Source of the DNA: a virus
IMG/VR virus record: IMGVR_UViG_3300030329_004561
Location: 1-28,457 of that record
Reading direction: 5' to 3' (one strand)
DNA: 28,457 nt
In this document: positions 10,350-21,367 of the stretch, piece after piece
Layout: each line of letters begins with the position of its first letter
Numbering within the stretch: the first letter of the stretch is position 1
Translations under genes and position numbers: made by a program
The notes under the pieces: model-generated
Databases searched by the model: none
Told to the model about the DNA's origin: nothing
What the model saw: only the letters and a program-made list of their open reading frames with translations

Positions 10350-10652
10350 CTAGTAACTCCGACGTCTATTCTCAGCCATCCGGTCTCGCCTAGCCTCACG
10401 CTTTTTCCACGCAGGCACTAGGGTCTCAGCAGGAGGCGTGTATGAGGTTTTACGGCGGCGACGAACAGCCTTGGTTTTGGGCCCCGCATTCTCCACTGGA
10501 GGGCGAAGCCGGGGGTCGTTGCCTCCCTCGATTGGCGCTTCAGCCCACTCCTTAGCCATATTCCGCGCCTTATTTGCGCTGGCGGCGGCTGCTGCTGCTG
10601 CTTTCTTCCCTGCTTCAGTGTAAGGGAATTTCTTTTTTCCTACCGTTGGCAT
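10350..10652 (-). CDS. Small basic protein with VGKKKFPYT N-terminus
   Basis: The 100-residue protein starts MPTVGKKKFPYTEAG, a signature I associate with short basic proteins of T7-like phages of unknown role. A poly-Ala helix (about 18-26) follows, then PPVENAGPK and a basic tail with RRRRK. It is probably a DNA- or RNA-binding virion or late protein. It shares the PPVEN motif with the gene at 10082. No Shine-Dalgarno sequence is seen at the start. Confidence 0.6.
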   Translation of the reverse strand: MPTVGKKKFPYTEAGKKAAAAAAASANKARNMAKEWAEAPIEGGNDPRLRPPVENAGPKTKAVRRRRKTSYTPPAETLVPAWKKREARRDRMAENRRRSY

Positions 10653-11183: not shown

Positions 11184-13031
11184 TCAGTAGAATCCCCTTC
11201 TTCCAAGGTGTCCAGTGGCAATGCCTCTTTTTCGCCTATTTTCTATTTTTTTCAGGTCACGCGGCAGGGGGATGTCGTCATACCTGTTTCTGTATCTGGT
11301 AGCCTGTTCGATAACGCATAGCCCAATTCCCGCAGACATTACGTCATCATCGTGGGCCCCCCTCAAGGCCTCAGCCTTCCCCTTGTCATTCACGCAAAAC
11401 GTCTCGCATTCTGAGACGAGGTGTAAGCAGTTGAGGTGAACACCCCCTCCGTCTTCCCCGTATCCCCTGATGCTTCGGGCCATTGTTTCCTCAATTTGCA
11501 ATCTTGTGGAACTGGAGGTGTGCCACCCAAAGGCCTTGGACCTCTTTTGGTTCACATGGTTAAATATCTCCCTTTGGTAAATGGGGATGTCTCCTTTGGC
11601 CCTGATAAGCTCCACGAACCCCCGGTCGCAGTTTATCTCAGACACTAGAAGGCACTTCCCATACCAGTGGGCCAGCCTGTATGTCCACTCAGCCAAAACA
11701 TCTATATCCCACCTGCACTCAGGCTTTAATCTTGCAACCATAGACGGCGGAATCCACCCGCGATCACGATCAAAAAAACCTTTTCTCCAAACCAAAACCG
11801 AATGGCAATCGGGATCTTTGCCTCCAACTTGTGACTGCCCGGTCATCAAATCTGCGCTTATTAGGTAATGGTATCCTTCTCGGGGCCTCTCAAAACAGTG
11901 GACAATAGCCTCCTCCAAAGAAGATTGCCTAAAGTTTACCAGCTTACCGCTCTCGGATAGCTCAGGAATGCCGTAGATTGGCTTCTGAGCGGTCGCATGG
12001 GTCCTTTGCCAGTCGAGGCCATCACGGGAGAACCTCGTCCTAGCAGACGCTCTGAAGGCGTGTTGCGAGGTGGTGGGGAACTCCCTGTCGAACTTGGTCT
12101 CATCTCCATCGCACTCGCTTTCCAGAATCTTTCTTCTCCAGCTAATATGGCTAATCGTGATAGTGTGTTCGTTACCCGATTTGTCCACGCACTTGTAATC
12201 CGCCAAAAGCTCCCTTTCCGTGGGGGTTAAAGATCGCCTGAGGTCCTCAACCTCTACGGCAGTAAGGTTGTCTTTGGCGTCCTCGAAAGCATACCAAGGA
12301 GCAAATATCCTTATCCACCGCCCTTTCCACTCGCCTTTTGCAAGGGTCTGGACATGCTCCCAGTCGTCAGCGTCATTCCAGCGGTCATAGAAAACCCCTG
12401 CCGGGCCTTGCGCGGTTGATTCAAGAACCACCGCTGTGTCTGGAAGGTCGGGAACACAGGCCATCACCCCGGTCAGGATTTCAGCGGAGTTTCTGGCCGG
12501 GGTGTCTCTCCAGCGTCCAATTTCCGTTGCAAGGACGAAGTGAAAAGTTCCTGATCTTCCGGCTTCTGAGTCCTGCGCCGTCTCCTTTTCAAGAATGGAG
12601 CCGTTACCAAAGGCCCCTCTTTCGTTTGTGATCCTTGGTCTTTCGTGGGGCCACTTCATTTTGTCGTAATCCGAATACCTTCTGGTAATTTTCCACAAGT
12701 TATCCGTTTGACTAAATTCGCCGCCAATAATTAGTCCGTTGGACTGCCTCCTCTGCAACATGTGGTATAGACAGGCCGTGGTAACAGTAGAGGACCCTTT
12801 CTGGCGTGGCTTGAGGATAATTATCCTACATGGATATTCATTCTCTCTGCACCATCTTATTGCGTCACAGACCTGCTCTTGCAAATAGTTAAGGACGGGA
12901 GTCTCTACAGCCCCGTCCTTTTTAAGGATCTTGCCAAACTGCTCGACCCAAGCGTCTTCATTTTCCATGCAAGCAGCACGAAGAAGCTCGTCCGCTTGAT
13001 CGTCGGTAAGTTGCACCTCTATCTCGCCCAT
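11184..13031 (-). CDS. terL: Terminase large subunit (packaging ATPase/nuclease)
   Basis: The 615-residue protein has the TerL two-domain layout. The ATPase part has a phage-type Walker A, KPRQKGSS (74-81), a Walker B region TFHFVLATEIGRW (162-174) with catalytic Glu170, and coupling motif ESTAQGP (204-210). The C-terminal RNase H-like nuclease domain begins near YLISADLMTG (about 390-400), whose Asp is the probable first metal ligand. The enzyme pumps phage DNA into the prohead through the portal and cuts the concatemer. Its start overlaps the PAS gene by 13 bases, with AAAGGA ahead. It lies at the 3' end of the late block, as in T7-type phages. Confidence 0.93.
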   Translation of the reverse strand: MGEIEVQLTDDQADELLRAACMENEDAWVEQFGKILKKDGAVETPVLNYLQEQVCDAIRWCRENEYPCRIIILKPRQKGSSTVTTACLYHMLQRRQSNGLIIGGEFSQTDNLWKITRRYSDYDKMKWPHERPRITNERGAFGNGSILEKETAQDSEAGRSGTFHFVLATEIGRWRDTPARNSAEILTGVMACVPDLPDTAVVLESTAQGPAGVFYDRWNDADDWEHVQTLAKGEWKGRWIRIFAPWYAFEDAKDNLTAVEVEDLRRSLTPTERELLADYKCVDKSGNEHTITISHISWRRKILESECDGDETKFDREFPTTSQHAFRASARTRFSRDGLDWQRTHATAQKPIYGIPELSESGKLVNFRQSSLEEAIVHCFERPREGYHYLISADLMTGQSQVGGKDPDCHSVLVWRKGFFDRDRGWIPPSMVARLKPECRWDIDVLAEWTYRLAHWYGKCLLVSEINCDRGFVELIRAKGDIPIYQREIFNHVNQKRSKAFGWHTSSSTRLQIEETMARSIRGYGEDGGGVHLNCLHLVSECETFCVNDKGKAEALRGAHDDDVMSAGIGLCVIEQATRYRNRYDDIPLPRDLKKIENRRKRGIATGHLGRRGFY

Positions 13032-13678
13032 CCGTATTCCTTTGCTATTTCTTCTGCTACTTCGTCCTCAGGAAACACTCTTCCTCCCCATATCTGATTG
13101 TGTGCTTTATATGGGCCAAGGGGCACAATGCGGACAAACCATTCTCCCCGGTAATTTCCATGAGAATCTTTGTATTTCAGGTTTCCTGCAAAGTGCGAGC
13201 CCGTTTTCGCAACTTGCAACCACCTTTGATAATAAGTGTCCCCCTCTTCGCTGTCGTAAATGAATGACTGCCAGCCAAGCCCAACCAACTTGGAGTCGTC
13301 GTCATCAACCAAGGTCTCATAGGCCCTGTTGACGAAGATAGCCTCCCCGTTTGATGTGCATCTAAAGGCCGGGTATGGAGCCTCTTGCAATTCCATCAGC
13401 CTCTCGCTAACCAACAGCCTTACCTCATCTTTTAGCGAGGTTCCTCCATTTGTCTTCAGCTCAGCAGTGAAAAACTCCTGCCTATCCGCGACTTTCTGAA
13501 GCTCTTCTTTTATAGACAGAAGCAACTGCGGCATTTGCCTCCTCTGCCTTCTTCTTATCCACCATTCTTTCCACGCGGACCTCCCCCTTGTTGTTAGCGA
13601 CCAAATCGCCAGCACAGCGGAGGCTGCCGCCCCTAAAGCGGTCAGTGTTGTGTAAAGGTCTATATGCACAGCGGTCAT
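13019..13678 (-). CDS. Membrane-anchored PAS-domain protein
   Basis: The 219-residue protein has a hydrophobic helix at residues 10-28 rich in Ala and Leu, then a strongly basic segment (WIRRRQRRQ, 40-48) that places the rest in the cytoplasm. A helical linker (50-98) could form a coiled coil. Residues about 100-195 read as a PAS fold: PAFRCTSNGEAIFVNRAYE, LVGLGWQSFIY, YYQRWLQVAKTG, GNLKYKDSHGNYRGEW and FVRIVPL. No kinase, cyclase or other output domain follows, so it would act by protein contact or through its membrane helix. It sits between the phosphoesterase and terminase genes and may sense redox state or a ligand during late infection; that role is inference. Confidence 0.75.
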   Translation of the reverse strand: MTAVHIDLYTTLTALGAAASAVLAIWSLTTRGRSAWKEWWIRRRQRRQMPQLLLSIKEELQKVADRQEFFTAELKTNGGTSLKDEVRLLVSERLMELQEAPYPAFRCTSNGEAIFVNRAYETLVDDDDSKLVGLGWQSFIYDSEEGDTYYQRWLQVAKTGSHFAGNLKYKDSHGNYRGEWFVRIVPLGPYKAHNQIWGGRVFPEDEVAEEIAKEYGWAR

Positions 13679-15014: not shown

Positions 15015-16031
15015 TTAGTTTCTCATTTTAAGACCTCTTTCAAAAAGACCAGCCTCTGCATCCCTTCTCTTAATAAGACCATCCAGCCCTCGTCCCTGCC
15101 ACAGCCTCTTCATAGACCTGATTTCCCGGGGGACCCTTCCGGCGTAACCTGCCGCTATGTGATCCCTGATGTTTGCCATCTCCCTTCTTCTGCTTCCCTT
15201 CATGCTTGCGCCCCTGTTGAACACAATCGACACAAGGGCTCCGTTGCTGTGCGGGTGAAGCCTGTCTTCAGACAGCCCAAATGCCGTTTGGGTTGTTTTT
15301 GCAAACCTTGGCAAAGTGGAGCCATCAAACACCTCTTGGGCCTCGTCCCATGAAACCCTCACCCTGTTCTTTACTGAAGCTAGGGCGTATTTCCCGGCAC
15401 CCCCCTTTCTTCCTGATACGCTAATGAGCGCGTTCACCTCAGACGAAGAAAGAAGACCTCCCCAATCTTTGCGAATCTGGGTTGCGTTGTTATACCCTAG
15501 ATCGTAGCCAAACCCTATGGTCACTCCGCTTGCGCCCCCGGGCCATGTGGGCCCCGAGAGATACTTCTGGTAATAGATTTTCCCTCCCACCTCGTATCCA
15601 ACGATGAGGTCCCGGGCCTCGTCGCTGACTGGCAGCGAGAGGCCGGGGATTACACCGCTTCTTTCCACGGAGAGGTCTCTAAGAGAGGCGCTGGCTCCGG
15701 AAAGCATAATGCTGGCGAAGAACACCAGCACCGCGATAATAATAAGCCTTGCCTTATTTGGGGACGGAGTTTCATCCCAGCCCTCATCAAAGGTTTTGCC
15801 TATGTCTCTTCCAAGCGTATGCCTAAACCCAATCTTGAGCAGGGCAAACGCTAATGCGCTGGCAACGAGGGTTTTCGTTACCGTTGACGCGATGTCCACG
15901 AACGTGAACGCTTCGATAAGGCCAAAGGCCCCATCAAGCCAGTTTGCAACGCCCAGAACGGCGTAGAAAATGGCTATTCCAATAATAGCGAAAACAATGT
16001 CCCGCCTTATGCTATTGTCGCTTTTTTTCAT
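15015..16031 (-). CDS. Lysis protein: three membrane helices fused to a muramidase
   Basis: This 338-residue protein joins a holin-like membrane part to a lysozyme domain. Membrane helices lie at about 12-32, 45-69 and 94-112. A basic N-terminus and the charged 70-93 loop place the C-terminus in the periplasm. TM3 ends in SGASASL, a possible signal-peptidase site (ASA). Residues 136-338 resemble pesticin/GH24-type muramidases: GYEVGGKIYY with catalytic Glu147, then SGVTIGFGYDLGY (Thr171, Asp177) and a FNRG segment late on. It would cleave peptidoglycan glycan strands. The export route and a pore function for the helices are inferred. Confidence 0.75.
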   Translation of the reverse strand: MKKSDNSIRRDIVFAIIGIAIFYAVLGVANWLDGAFGLIEAFTFVDIASTVTKTLVASALAFALLKIGFRHTLGRDIGKTFDEGWDETPSPNKARLIIIAVLVFFASIMLSGASASLRDLSVERSGVIPGLSLPVSDEARDLIVGYEVGGKIYYQKYLSGPTWPGGASGVTIGFGYDLGYNNATQIRKDWGGLLSSSEVNALISVSGRKGGAGKYALASVKNRVRVSWDEAQEVFDGSTLPRFAKTTQTAFGLSEDRLHPHSNGALVSIVFNRGASMKGSRRREMANIRDHIAAGYAGRVPREIRSMKRLWQGRGLDGLIKRRDAEAGLFERGLKMRN

Positions 16032-16048: not shown

Positions 16049-16360
16049 TTAAGCCCCCAGAGCCTCCCAGTCTTCCTTGGTGTGTTCAGTCACGCTGGAA
16101 ATGTCAGAAATATCGTGGGGCTGGCTGAGAGAGAACAAGTAGGATAGTTCGTCCCCGGAGACTGTCGCGTTGGACTTCTCGGCAATCATTCGCAGAGTTG
16201 GGGCAATGGTATCTTCGTCCGCAGGCAAGCCATATTTCGTGTTCAGGTCATCTGAAACTTGGTCATAGTCTGCGCGAGGAACAGAGTAATACCTGCGCCC
16301 TGTCAAGACTCTGGACAGCTCGATGGGGGTGAGTTCTGGTTCTGCTTCTTCGGAAGTCAT
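16049..16360 (-). CDS. Small acidic protein of unknown function
   Basis: The 103-residue protein is acidic, with no membrane segment or recognised motif. It contains RRYYSVPRADYDQVSDDL and several Ser/Asp-rich stretches. Its start overlaps the stop of the large LamG-type fibre gene by one base (TAATG), so it may be translated with the fibre. A fibre assembly chaperone or a small virion protein are reasonable guesses from position alone. Confidence 0.6.
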   Translation of the reverse strand: MTSEEAEPELTPIELSRVLTGRRYYSVPRADYDQVSDDLNTKYGLPADEDTIAPTLRMIAEKSNATVSGDELSYLFSLSQPHDISDISSVTEHTKEDWEALGA

Positions 16361-18399
16361 TAGTATATTTTGAATCGTTCGTTTAAGATGGCCACCACTG
16401 AAGCGGCCTCTGAGTCGCTCATGCTGTCCGGGTATAGGGCTACGAACTCTACGTCGATTGCCGAGTTCCAGTTTCCGTTATCAGCGCCTCCTGCAATAGC
16501 GTATTTATTTGAGTTCAATCCTGACCAATCGGCTGTGGCCGTCTGAAGGTTGGCGTCATTAGTTTTGGAGCTTTGGGAAGAAGCGGAGAAGTCTACCTGT
16601 GCAAGAATTCGACCCGTGTATTTGCCACTCTGCTCAACAGCAGCAGAACCATTATGGTATGACCACCAATCAGATGTTGCTACTTCCCTGATAATTAGCC
16701 CAGCACCTGTAGTGCTAGCAGTAACAGAGTCAGTATCCTTGGTTACATTAAAAACTCTCGCATGGGATTCCCCTCCTCCTCCTAGAATGGTGCCGACCAC
16801 AAACAGCCTTCCTTTAGTTAGGGAAGGGATAAAATGCCCGGACAAGTAGTTGTCAACGCCATCAAAACGAATAACAGGATAGCCTATGACGCTACAAGGG
16901 TTATCCCCGGAAGTGTTTACGGTAACAGTTTGTCCTGTAGTCGCGGTGAAAGACGAATCTCCGTGGGTGGCATCCACCTCAAAATTTACGTCTAAGATGG
17001 GGCTTTCTGTTGGGTTTGCGGGATTAGCAACGGCAGAGTTCCACACCCTAGCCCTAGTGTATTTGCCTGTCAGCGGCGATCCTGTAGTATTGTAGGCCAT
17101 GCCCAGCCTAACTGGTGCGCTTTTCGAGGCAACAGAAGTTGTGACTGCGGTTTTGTCGGTCCCTAACTGCACACCATTAACGTAAAACTTAACATCAGTT
17201 CCGTTCCTCATTACCATAAGGTCTGCGGTAGAATCGTTCGACAAACCAGTAGAAGATGTGGACTCATAACCCGTATTGCTGGAGCCATTAAAGGAGAGGT
17301 AGAGAATGAGTTTGCCATTAGTCTTTAAGTCAAACCTCCAAGACCTCTGGGCTCCAGAAGAAGTCCACTTCGACACAAGACCCATATTAGACGAAGGAGT
17401 CCAATCTGTGAGGGTGACTCCCTTTGCTTCTATCGTAAAATCTCCCCACCCATCCAGATTTGCGGCATCTGGGACACTGTAGAAATTACTGCCAACGCCG
17501 GGAAAGTGACCCACAGGCAAATTATTAGCACTTGGGGTTAGATACTTACCGCGATAGGAGTAGGTTGTCTGGACAGCATCAGAAGCAGTAGCCTGCTGTA
17601 TAGCAACACCATCGCCTTGCAAGTAAATGGTTTGCCCGGTTGTAACGGCAAAGGATCTGTCTGTCCGAGTAGCCAAAGAAAAATCAACAGAGAAAACGGG
17701 AGAAGACGAATCTGGAGTTGCTGTGTTGTAGACCTTGGCCCCGCCTACTTGGCCTTTAAGAGGGTAGGAGTATGAGCCTCCTTCTTTATTGCCAATCTCT
17801 AGGTTAGAATATACGGAGTCATAGAGTGTCGTGCTTACCCCTGCCACTGTGGTGCCTAGCGCAGCAAACCCTGACCCGGTGTCGATCTCAAAGGATATAG
17901 TGCTGCTGTTTCTTATCGCCCTAACTGAACACGTTCCTCCATCAGAAACACCTGTGGCTACGGTTGATTTGTAGGTGGTGACATTGGTCCCGTCGAAAGA
18001 AAGATCAATTCTGAGCTTACCATCTGTATCTACACCGAACTCCCATGATGCGTAACCATACGATGGATACGTTTTGGAAATTAAAGGGGTGTGATTGGAT
18101 GGGGTCCAATCGGGCATAAGAACATCATTTACTTCAAAACAAAAGTCATCGAACGCATTCAAATTGCTATTATGGGAAACATAAGCATAAGAGTAAACCG
18201 TTCCCGGCATGAACAAGAAGTTCTTCGGGCCAATCGCCTTATTCTGCCACGCTGCCACAGTATCCAGATATCCCGCCGCAGAGCCGCCCGTCTTTAGCAC
18301 ACCTTCATTGGCGTCTAAAACAAGTAACCCCTTACTAAAATAATAGGGGTCTGAGGCGCTGCGAGCATCAGAGACGCCCAGTCTGGGGAATATTCTCAT
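16360..18399 (-). CDS. Tail fibre/adhesin with three LamG-like domains
   Basis: The 679-residue protein is rich in Ser, Thr, Gly and Asp. It contains successive concanavalin-type (LamG) units at about 60-255, 290-480 and 510-679. Units one and two repeat the signature (L/M)xDWTPSxxxxLxSK, then (G)KLxxxLSFDG/NG, a short V-x-FEI/KFYVNG strand, and a closing VYN/VWNxA-x-P strand with a V/LDVNF/VDFS stretch. Such jelly-roll domains bind sugars, so this is a likely receptor-binding fibre or virion-surface adhesin. The third unit starts IRFDGVDNYLSG and ends in an ALYPDSMSDSEAASV segment typical of LamG units. It is followed by a probable helper gene. Confidence 0.75.
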   Translation of the reverse strand: MRIFPRLGVSDARSASDPYYFSKGLLVLDANEGVLKTGGSAAGYLDTVAAWQNKAIGPKNFLFMPGTVYSYAYVSHNSNLNAFDDFCFEVNDVLMPDWTPSNHTPLISKTYPSYGYASWEFGVDTDGKLRIDLSFDGTNVTTYKSTVATGVSDGGTCSVRAIRNSSTISFEIDTGSGFAALGTTVAGVSTTLYDSVYSNLEIGNKEGGSYSYPLKGQVGGAKVYNTATPDSSSPVFSVDFSLATRTDRSFAVTTGQTIYLQGDGVAIQQATASDAVQTTYSYRGKYLTPSANNLPVGHFPGVGSNFYSVPDAANLDGWGDFTIEAKGVTLTDWTPSSNMGLVSKWTSSGAQRSWRFDLKTNGKLILYLSFNGSSNTGYESTSSTGLSNDSTADLMVMRNGTDVKFYVNGVQLGTDKTAVTTSVASKSAPVRLGMAYNTTGSPLTGKYTRARVWNSAVANPANPTESPILDVNFEVDATHGDSSFTATTGQTVTVNTSGDNPCSVIGYPVIRFDGVDNYLSGHFIPSLTKGRLFVVGTILGGGGESHARVFNVTKDTDSVTASTTGAGLIIREVATSDWWSYHNGSAAVEQSGKYTGRILAQVDFSASSQSSKTNDANLQTATADWSGLNSNKYAIAGGADNGNWNSAIDVEFVALYPDSMSDSEAASVVAILNERFKIY

Positions 18400-18695: not shown

Positions 18696-19421
18696 TTAAA
18701 AAAGTATTTTAGCAATTCGTCCTTGCGGTGTCCAAGTTCCAGTTGCAACAACAACTTTCAGGACAAGATATAGCATCGCCACGGCTACCGCAATCCACAC
18801 AAACCTTTTATATTTAAGGGCTTCATCTCTTTGGGACTCCACTTTTGCTACCTTTTCCCGAGCCGCGTCTCTTTCAGCAGCAATTTTAATCCCTATTTTG
18901 ATGCGGGAGTTTGCCTCCTCTAGCCTTTCCAGTAAGCCTTTGTTCTGGACGGCCATAGCCTCTATCTCAGATCGCAACTGGAGGTTTGCTTGCTCTGCCT
19001 TGGTTAGAGCCGCTTTGGTCTCGTTTAATGCTGCAACGGCAGACTCCCTAGCGGCAATAGACGAGTCTAACTCTGCCCTAAGGTCTACCACAAAGCCCCG
19101 AAGCTCGTCAGCGGCAGCAGATCCCGCCTCTAGCCCGTTTGCGTAAGCCTCTTCAACAGCCTTTTCTATGGCTTCTGTGGTCACTTTGGCGGCGTCGAGC
19201 TTGTGCCCAACATCCCTTACCGCGTCTTCCACCTCTCCAACTTTAGCCTCTACCTTTCGGACCTGCGCCTCCGTATTGGCTATATTGGGCTTTGGAGATA
19301 ATTTGGGAACCGCTATGGCCGGCGGTGCCTGTGTGACCGGGGGAGAACACGACACAAACGCAAAGCAGCTTGCAATAATTGCAAGCGCCACGCAGGACCT
19401 GTTTGTTTTGGGGGTTCTCAT
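18696..19421 (-). CDS. Candidate unimolecular spanin (lipoprotein, coiled coil, C-terminal TM)
   Basis: The 241-residue protein begins with a lipoprotein signal peptide: basic MRTPKTNR, a hydrophobic core and a lipobox-like FVSC with Cys25. A Pro-rich segment follows, then a long charged helix (about 40-200) with heptad-like Ala/Leu spacing. A single hydrophobic segment, about residues 207-226 (WIAVAVAMLYLVLKVVVA), sits near the C-terminus. An outer-membrane lipid anchor plus inner-membrane helix is the layout of u-spanins such as T1 gp11, which fuse the two membranes at the end of lysis. The chosen start has GGAGG in good position, inside the 20-base repeat; ATG at 19445 overlaps the fibre stop and is the alternative. 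Confidence 0.7.
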   Translation of the reverse strand: MRTPKTNRSCVALAIIASCFAFVSCSPPVTQAPPAIAVPKLSPKPNIANTEAQVRKVEAKVGEVEDAVRDVGHKLDAAKVTTEAIEKAVEEAYANGLEAGSAAADELRGFVVDLRAELDSSIAARESAVAALNETKAALTKAEQANLQLRSEIEAMAVQNKGLLERLEEANSRIKIGIKIAAERDAAREKVAKVESQRDEALKYKRFVWIAVAVAMLYLVLKVVVATGTWTPQGRIAKILF

Positions 19422-19423
19422 AG

Positions 19424-19443
19424 CCTCCCTCCGGGGGGAGATC
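19424..19443. repeat. 20-bp dispersed repeat, copy B, at the spanin start
   Basis: Exact second copy of CCTCCCTCCGGGGGGAGATC (first copy 5838-5857). It spans the end of the tail-fibre gene and holds, on the minus strand, the GGAGG Shine-Dalgarno sequence of the spanin gene. Its hairpin could mask that site. Confidence 0.65.
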
Positions 19444-21367
19444 AATCCATGGGGATCAGGGTTAGCGAAATATCGGTAACAGTGGGGTTGTCTGAGCCGG
19501 TTTCGTTAGCAATCCAGACCTCCACAGTATTCGTGTTAGCGAGACTCATCACGTTTTGCACGGTCATCGAGTCTTCGTGGGTATTATTCAAAAACGTCTG
19601 GCTTACCTCTGAAGTGGAGATGGTGGCATCGTTTTTGCCCAGCCGAGCAGAAACAGTCACAGTCCCAGAGGCCCCGCTCTTGACGGTCATAACGGCTGTG
19701 ACCAAAAAGTTTGATGTCACAGAGCCGCCATAAGTAACCTTGGCTTCCGAGCTGGATGGGACGCTGAAGTTGGCCCCACTAACTACGGCAAAGGTTCCCG
19801 GGTGAATTTTTGCAAAAGACCCTGTAGATACAGAGGTCGCATTGGTGTTATTCCTTGTTCCGGCGATTACACCAAATCCAAGGGTTGCTGATTGGGTTGA
19901 CGCGCTCAGAGCCGCCCTTCCTGCTGCCGCATCTGCTGCGGTCATCAGCGATCTTCCCGTGGCGGTGGAATCGGTTACATCTGATGCAACAATTGCCCCT
20001 GCCCCGCTGGCGCATACGGCTAGATTTCCGGTGGCATCTGGGACCGCAAGGCTCCTAGTGGTGGATGAGTCAAAAGTAAGCAGGGCGTATCCACCAGAAG
20101 GCCCGTCCATCCTAATCATGTTGGAGCCACTCGCGGGGTCGATTACGACAGTCCCTGTAAACGTGTCCCCGGCGATGTTGGGAGACCCAATTGCGGTCCT
20201 GAATGCCGCAGCATCAGTAATGCCTCTGCCGTCCCCGTCCACCAGCTTTTCTGTGCTTCCTCCCCCGTGAGGGAGTTGAAACTTGCTGGTATTGGCGGCG
20301 TTTTCTAGGGCAATTTTAGCTCCAGAGCTAAAGTTGTATCCTTCAGAAGTGGAGGAGGTTACGGAGGTCTTAGTGAACGAGGGAGAGTCGCCTGTGCCAA
20401 CCCCCAGAGCCGTTCTGAACGCCCCTGCGTCAGTGATCCCCCCTCCGTCTCCAAGAGTAACTGTCCCGGTAGCATCCGGCCACGTTATCGTTCTGTTGGC
20501 CGTTAAAGTGCCGTGGTCGATCTCAGAATAATATGATGAAGCAGTGTTATACAGTCTCACCTTTGATCCGGTGAGAACGGTAAACATTGGGTTGGTTGAG
20601 TGCCTTGCTTCAAGGATGATAGCTGAGGTCTGGTTGTTATCGGCAATAAGCCCTTTTCCGCTGGAAGCACCATTGGAGAAGTGGCCAGCAGTTCCTCCTG
20701 TCCCTGTGTTAAATCCAAAAACGGAATAGCTGGTGTTCCCTGTGGAGGCCCCATATACCCCGTATCCATTGGTTCCAGTTGATGACGCGCTAACAGCTTT
20801 GTTTGTCCCGGTAGACGCGAATGACGCGGCCCCTGTTGCGCTTCGTTTTACAACCTTGCTAACTGTAGCCGCATCTGTTGCGTCAGTAATGTCAGCACTT
20901 GTGTGGGTGTGGGAAGTGGCCGCCTTGCCTGAGATGGCAGAGGTGTTTGTTGCAACATTACTGGTTATCGTTGCAAGATCACTCACAAGGTCTGTGACAG
21001 TGCTTTGGGCCTGAGCGCCTGTGTGGTTAGCTCTATCGAGCAGGGTTGCGGTAGAGTGACCACTATCCTCAATAAGCCCCCCAGCTTTAGACTTAAACAG
21101 GTTCCCGGCAGTAGGGGAGCCGTGGATTTTTGTGTAAATCCCGGTAAGAAAAGTCGTCACCCATGCCGTAGTTGCAATGTGTGTGTCGTTGTCAGAGCTT
21201 CCCGGCGTGGGAGCCTTAGGGGCCCCGGTAAATTCGGGAGACGCCAAATTTGCAACTGGGTTCCCGTTTTGGTAAATTGTCTGCCCCCTAACCTCGGACC
21301 ACTGGGTCCCAGATTTTCCTAATTTGCCTTCGTTGTTGGCGTTGGGGATTATGTTTGGAGTGGCCAT
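19442..21367 (-). CDS. Tail fibre protein
   Basis: The 641-residue protein is rich in Ala, Gly, Ser and Thr and shows typical phage fibre repeats: ATTAWVTTFL near the N-terminus, ANHTGAQAQSTVTDL, ATSHTHTSADITDAT, two GITDAxAFRTA units (near 315 and 385) and TITWPDATGTVTL / SLAVPDATGNLAV beta segments. These form trimeric shafts in known fibres. The N-terminus (MATPNIIPNANNEGKLG) probably binds the virion and the last ~130 residues form a separate beta-rich tip. No enzymatic motif is visible. It overlaps or abuts its neighbours. Confidence 0.85.
   Translation of the reverse strand: MATPNIIPNANNEGKLGKSGTQWSEVRGQTIYQNGNPVANLASPEFTGAPKAPTPGSSDNDTHIATTAWVTTFLTGIYTKIHGSPTAGNLFKSKAGGLIEDSGHSTATLLDRANHTGAQAQSTVTDLVSDLATITSNVATNTSAISGKAATSHTHTSADITDATDAATVSKVVKRSATGAASFASTGTNKAVSASSTGTNGYGVYGASTGNTSYSVFGFNTGTGGTAGHFSNGASSGKGLIADNNQTSAIILEARHSTNPMFTVLTGSKVRLYNTASSYYSEIDHGTLTANRTITWPDATGTVTLGDGGGITDAGAFRTALGVGTGDSPSFTKTSVTSSTSEGYNFSSGAKIALENAANTSKFQLPHGGGSTEKLVDGDGRGITDAAAFRTAIGSPNIAGDTFTGTVVIDPASGSNMIRMDGPSGGYALLTFDSSTTRSLAVPDATGNLAVCASGAGAIVASDVTDSTATGRSLMTAADAAAGRAALSASTQSATLGFGVIAGTRNNTNATSVSTGSFAKIHPGTFAVVSGANFSVPSSSEAKVTYGGSVTSNFLVTAVMTVKSGASGTVTVSARLGKNDATISTSEVSQTFLNNTHEDSMTVQNVMSLANTNTVEVWIANETGSDNPTVTDISLTLIPMD

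Follow-up and report, generated by a model that had tools for sequence, protein, structure and literature searches.

A three-helix holin-like domain joined in frame to a pesticin-type muramidase, a probable natural holin-endolysin fusion of a phage

Described lysis proteins with a membrane part

Phage lysis is usually described with the holin and the endolysin encoded by separate genes, the membrane protein controlling when the enzyme meets the wall. A natural holin-endolysin fusion is known from Clostridium sporogenes, built on a one-helix holin of the TpeE family (PMC9527704), and an artificial holin-lysozyme fusion has been made from an Aeromonas phage (PMC12817945). The gene described here lies in a 28,457-nucleotide stretch of viral DNA (IMG/VR record IMGVR_UViG_3300030329_004561), referred to as the window, and parallels the TpeE/BhlA type (PMC9527704) in that a putative holin is fused to the N-terminal side of the endolysin, making holin and cargo one molecule. 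The TpeE/BhlA-type proteins, however, carry one short transmembrane (TM) helix plus an amphipathic helix, occur in Gram-positive genomes and belong to another holin family, whereas the window fusion combines three helices, of predicted N-in/C-out topology, with a pesticin-type muramidase, in phages that bear candidate spanins and have split relatives. With three helices and no match to a Pfam or PHROG holin family, it is an analogue of the TpeE/BhlA type and not a member.

SAR endolysins that work with pinholins or a releasin (P1 Lyz, 21 R, Mu gp22; PMC9239132) are likewise exported enzymes of the lysozyme superfamily at the inner membrane, but they use a single weak SAR helix able to exit the membrane together with a separate pinholin or releasin, whereas the membrane part of the window protein is polytopic and strongly hydrophobic. 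In Oenococcus phage fOg44 the signal-peptide enzyme Lys44 is encoded beside a separate membrane protein (PMC6116005), an arrangement like that of the split cassettes described below; the window enzyme, in contrast, has no signal peptide and its membrane protein is covalently joined. M4Lys of Salmonella phage BSPM4 is an endolysin with a TM segment of its own, needed for holin-independent lysis (PMC7143992), but that segment is C-terminal, the enzyme is a Sec-independent endopeptidase, and no kinship to the window helix family is shown. Pesticin and the GH24 phage lysozymes (PDB 4aqn, 4epf, 1xjt) have the same enzyme fold and the same Glu/Thr/Asp set as the window protein, but at about 18% identity, without an N-terminal three-helix domain and with other modes of delivery.

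The same muramidase family also occurs just downstream of a gene for a small polytopic membrane protein in Xanthomonas phage AhaSv (OR820514) and in Xanthomonadaceae prophage cassettes (L133, L144, L149, L153), where, however, the enzyme is a lipoprotein. In AhaSv (L009, 3297-4573) the two genes overlap by 4 bp, with an overlap also in the prophage cassettes; a lipoprotein endolysin of this type is unusual. Kinship of these membrane genes with the window domain is not supported, there being no detectable homology and profile scores at the level of unrelated controls.

No description of a three-helix holin-endolysin fusion, or of this helix family, was found in the literature searched; new here are a three-helix fusion, its occurrence in phages bearing candidate spanins, and a membrane-protein family that neither Pfam nor PHROGs contains. 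For quality control, a 2025 lytic-protein survey discarded endolysins that contain TM regions (PMC12596118), a filter by which such fusions would have been removed, and this constitutes a blind spot.

The fusion gene and its muramidase domain

A sequence-only reading of the window had proposed three membrane helices ahead of a complete lysozyme-type domain, and the minus-strand open reading frame, its hydrophobicity and its Pfam match agree on that arrangement (Table 1). Kyte-Doolittle maxima are 2.43 for TM1, 1.70 for TM2, the weakest, and 2.52 for TM3. The signature TLGxDxGxxFDxGW in the loop after TM2 is common to fused and free three-helix proteins, and TM3 of the fusion is the counterpart of the last helix of the free proteins, whose ends fall there. 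Four basic residues precede TM1, none lie in the TM1-TM2 loop, which holds three acidic residues, and six lie in the TM2-TM3 loop; the trend is repeated in nine other family members, most weakly in L288, with one basic residue ahead of TM1. Because of this charge distribution, the positive-inside rule predicts an N-in/C-out topology with the muramidase in the periplasm, and the periplasmic C-terminus that had been proposed thus stands on a rule-based footing. Class I holins of the lambda S topology have three TM helices arranged N-out/C-in; the fusion also has three, but its charges point to the opposite orientation. AlphaFold pLDDT in the helix region is only about 50-72.

Table 1. Features of the fusion gene and of associated candidate lysis genes
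Feature	Coordinates	Strand	Basis
Fusion gene, three-helix holin-like domain plus pesticin/GH24-type muramidase	15015..16031	minus	ORF and translation, ATG start, 338 aa
TM1, residues 12-31	15939..15998	minus	Hydrophobicity; AlphaFold helix 4-35
TM2, residues 47-66, weakly hydrophobic, K53 inside	15834..15893	minus	Hydrophobicity; AlphaFold helix 42-72
Cytoplasmic-loop signature TLGxDxGxxFDxGW, residues 72-85	15777..15818	minus	Invariant alignment columns
TM3, residues 96-115	15687..15746	minus	Hydrophobicity; alignment with free three-helix proteins
Putative signal peptidase I site A113-S114-A115 / S116	15687..15695	minus	Inferred; invariant motif, then variable linker
Muramidase domain, residues 133-336	15024..15635	minus	Pfam Phage_lysozyme; AlphaFold; Foldseek best match pesticin
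Catalytic Glu E147 (pesticin E178 equivalent)	15591..15593	minus	Invariant in 76 relatives
Catalytic Thr T171 (pesticin T201)	15519..15521	minus	Invariant; aligned with T201
Catalytic Asp D177 (pesticin D207)	15501..15503	minus	Invariant; aligned with D207
Candidate unimolecular spanin	18696..19445 (listed also to 19421)	minus	Lipobox FVSC, long coiled coil, C-terminal TM
118-aa one-helix protein	G001:21580-21936 (L172:2580-2936)	minus	95% identical and open in contig G004

The assignment of the enzyme is based on profile, catalytic set and fold. Pfam Phage_lysozyme (PF00959) matches at 1.4e-6, with 29 bits against a cut-off of 22.3, while the score for PF16754 (13.4 against 25.8) is below threshold for that model alone. 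Eleven positions are invariant across 76 relatives, E147, T171 and D177 among them; a profile alignment places SGVTxGxGxDLG on pesticin residues 198-209, so that T171 corresponds to T201 and D177 to D207, and pesticin E178, T201 and D207 are the residues that matter for catalysis (PMC9927483). The AlphaFold pLDDT of this domain is mostly above 95, and in a Foldseek comparison with the PDB every one of the eleven matches with E below 0.001 is a pesticin chain (best E 1.4e-5), GH24 lysozymes coming next. By these measures the enzyme is a member of the pesticin/GH24 muramidase superfamily, and it is predicted to hydrolyse the glycan strands of peptidoglycan.

The muramidase domain is widespread, with 330 viral stretches (492 with a broader query) and 71 bacterial-genome loci, and its usual N-terminal partner is a peptidoglycan-binding domain, a lipoprotein or signal peptide, or none. 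Three helices precede it in five distinct sequences among 164 distinct ORFs, all from one N-terminal family, and are absent from the other approximately 159 examined. A viral structure library returned domain-level matches only, none of them shown to have the helices in common.

Fused and free relatives, and other candidate lysis genes

Full-length homologues of the fusion are present in eight other viral contigs and comprise three sequence types, of 97-100%, 83% and 64% identity; queries with the whole protein, or with a first N-terminal alignment, recovered only these near relatives. Two further, more distant phages (L288, L289) encode the same fusion, which is thus recurrent, being found in the window clade and in both of these. 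An assembly or frameshift artefact is rejected by its presence in eight contigs, in three diverged types and in the two distant fusions. Compared with the 83% relative, the dN/dS values are 0.066 (helices), 0.19 (linker) and 0.052 (enzyme). In the comparison with the 64% relative synonymous sites are saturated; there the helices and the enzyme both have a dN of 0.27 and the linker has 1.37. These substitution rates indicate that the membrane part is under constraint as strong as that on the catalytic part, and this equality argues that the helices are not a passive anchor.

Free versions of the three-helix domain surfaced only with a degenerate DNA pattern built on the loop motif TLGxDxG..FDxGW, which matched 15 viral stretches. 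Seven of these lie outside the window clade; two carry the further fusions and five carry free proteins of about 116-163 aa that end directly after TM3. The split versions that the sequence-only reading had suggested looking for in related phages thus exist, the three-helix gene standing free in the lysis cassettes of four phages (L275/L192, L276/L185, L277/L187/L190 and L279/L193). All four cassettes have the order candidate unimolecular spanin, three-helix gene, muramidase with its own N-terminal signal peptide; the junctions between the last two genes are 0-4 bp, the spanin-type gene has a lipobox, a coiled coil and a C-terminal TM and, in three cassettes, a one-helix gene ahead of it. The free homologues are therefore what is expected of a holin, a small membrane protein encoded with an endolysin and a spanin, while in the window the three-helix part belongs to the endolysin itself. 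The free protein of L192, used as the first query sequence, recovers the fused proteins at 38-47% identity; E-values from the family HMM are inflated because members were included in the model. In a locus from an Akkermansiaceae bin (L122, 3507-3872) a free three-helix gene (WRDITAFILIG...FQDGWAALTLQQK) directly precedes a signal-peptide muramidase and looks analogous, but homology to the window domain is not supported, its profile scores being no better than those of unrelated controls; no viral relative of the L122 protein was found.

In a tree of 48 enzyme sequences a single clade (SH-aLRT 98) unites all ten muramidases associated with three helices, whether fused or split, and therefore the helix domain and the enzyme have travelled together. 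Within it four split enzymes group (88) beside two fused ones, with the window clade apart; the N-terminal tree places every fused row on one side with support of only 71/74. Both one fission of an ancestral fusion and repeated fusion are compatible with these trees.

The candidate spanin of the window is of the same protein type as that found directly upstream of the free three-helix gene in the split cassettes. Its C-terminal TM is present, its FVSC lipobox is atypical (FVGC is among the deviating lipoboxes already described; PMC6139136), and a spanin profile search gave no match for it. The periplasmic part of T1 gp11 is mainly beta (PMC6139136), and with its coiled coil the window candidate would represent a different spanin type.

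The genome to which the window belongs is also represented by contig G001, which is 64,943 bp long and at least 99.6% identical. The first 98 bases of this contig are repeated exactly at its end, and the genome thus appears complete at about 64.8 kb; window positions 10514-10611 match both ends of the contig (the exact 98-bp direct repeat), which places the join of a circular or circularly permuted assembly inside the window. Every ORF in G001 with at least 30 aa was screened for hydrophobic segments, and besides the fusion no second multi-helix protein was found on a plausible coding strand of the complete genome. The single-helix candidates were the spanin-like protein, a PAS-domain protein and the 118-aa protein of Table 1; the last matches only PHROGs of unknown function and could be a rival holin, releasin-like or i-spanin-like. 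The case that had been named as speaking against a fusion, a separate holin elsewhere combined with helices that only anchor, was thus not encountered, as there is no other multi-helix protein and the helices are constrained, with the 118-aa one-helix protein as a caveat.

Three other genes of this genome deserve mention in their own right. Outside the window, a single 5,900-aa ORF at 26114-43816 of G001 (the contig of L002) takes up 27% of the genome and lies upstream of a portal-like gene; for the first 4,295 aa the only matches are to function-unknown PHROGs (phrog_3842, E 5e-25), and the product is probably a giant virion or ejected protein. In the window, the gene at 13019-13678 (minus), between those for the terminase and a metallophosphoesterase, encodes 219 aa with a single TM helix at the N-terminus and a weak match to the PAS fold (E 0.005), an odd place for a sensor-like domain. 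Next but one to the lysis gene, a 679-aa protein (16360-18399, minus) has two similar halves that by eye resemble LamG-type repeats, and only weak PHROG matches; it is probably an adhesin.

Readings of the fusion gene

The comparisons show that a three-helix domain is joined in frame to a predicted muramidase, and that members of the domain's family also occur free in spanin/three-helix/endolysin cassettes. The gene is probably a natural holin-endolysin fusion, with presumed holin activity of the three-helix part and a possible cleavage behind TM3. Of the three options originally offered, a self-exporting endolysin, a holin-endolysin fusion and a SAR-like enzyme, the free cassette gene, the constrained helices and the absence of a separate multi-helix holin from the genome scan favour a fusion with self-export, and the SAR-like option is disfavoured. 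The label 'holin' rests on gene neighbourhood and topology, since the three-helix family has no annotated holin member: it has no match in Pfam or PHROGs (holin families included) and no homologue in cultured phages among 50,697 phage records, collections that are partial. Holins are very diverse, and a missing family match is therefore weak evidence against holin identity. Further observations count against the reading as a holin fusion, namely the 118-aa one-helix protein, the one-helix genes ahead of the spanin in most split cassettes, the low model confidence in the TM region, that C-terminal fusions impair the T4 holin T (PMC12162936) and that the candidate spanin lies three genes from the fusion and not adjacent to it.

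One plausible sequence of events is that the fusion is inserted into the membrane during synthesis, TM3 serving as export signal or anchor of the enzyme in place of the signal peptide of the split enzymes. The three-helix part would gather in the membrane and, at its own time, depolarise or open it, its assembly setting the timing of lysis. The muramidase would be restrained at the membrane, or released by signal peptidase behind A-S-A, and then cut the wall; its activation may be brought about by loss of the membrane potential, the route of secreted endolysins (PMC6116005), or by cleavage after A-S-A, and the candidate unimolecular spanin would disrupt the outer membrane. That the split enzymes have their own signal peptides suggests that in this lineage the membrane protein is not needed for enzyme export and that its role is triggering and not passage; the three-helix part would to that extent resemble a pinholin, though the system would not be of the SAR kind.

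In a special case of the holin-endolysin fusion the protein is a polyprotein, cut by host signal peptidase behind A-S-A so that the three-helix holin and the periplasmic muramidase become separate molecules, as they are when the split cassettes encode them in two genes. This is a real possibility, if one short of an even chance. The possible signal-peptidase site that had been pointed out at the end of TM3 is indeed there as a putative motif: A-S-A at 113-115 is unchanged throughout the window clade, down to 64% identity, whereas hardly any of the 14 residues behind it are conserved (linker dN 1.37, flanks 0.27). The distant fusions also have small-residue ends behind TM3 (GRAS, GAKG), these are missing from the free three-helix proteins, and the split enzymes carry signal peptides of their own. 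TM3, however, is long and strongly hydrophobic (about 17-20 residues), closer to an anchor helix than to the core of a signal peptide, AlphaFold extends its helix to residue 121, and A-S-A, a candidate cleavage site, may just mark the helix end. Internal starts for a free enzyme (in-frame GTG101, GTG103, ATG109 and GTG122) are not supported, none having a clear Shine-Dalgarno sequence.

It is unlikely that the protein is a membrane-tethered endolysin whose helices only anchor and export the enzyme, the true holin being another protein such as the 118-aa one-helix protein. The conservation of that gene (95% identical and open in G004) and the one-helix genes ahead of the spanin in three of the four split cassettes fit such a scheme; but a mere anchor would have no need of a sequence-specific loop (TLGxDxG..FDxGW) that the free proteins also have, of constraint equal to that on the enzyme, or of existence as an enzyme-less free cassette gene. 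Very improbable is a SAR-like endolysin whose helices exit the depolarised membrane and free the enzyme: the lysozyme-superfamily enzyme recalls known SAR endolysins and the topology makes membrane-held export plausible, but SAR domains are single, weakly hydrophobic, Gly/Ala-rich, uncharged N-terminal helices (PMC9239132), whereas this anchor is polytopic, TM3 is uncharged with a Kyte-Doolittle value of 2.5, and the exit would involve three helices with charged loops. Scarcely credible is a virion or entry muramidase, as opposed to a lysis protein of the infected cell: the gene does lie among tail and adhesin genes on the late strand, but the fusion has three TM helices, relatives have spanin-type cassette neighbours, and the split enzymes have a signal peptide.

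Returning to the holin-endolysin fusion, its fullest form would be a lysis clock in a single polypeptide, in which the last helix of a three-helix holin is the export signal of the endolysin, signal peptidase cuts the product into a 1:1 pair, one gene sets both timing and enzyme dose, and the family moves between fused and split states; we offer this only tentatively. Both parts of lysis are seemingly one molecule here, and the homologous split cassettes provide ready-made controls for direct comparison. With this fusion one can test whether holins have to be separate molecules, whether they need to export anything, and how a periplasmic muramidase stays quiet until lysis.
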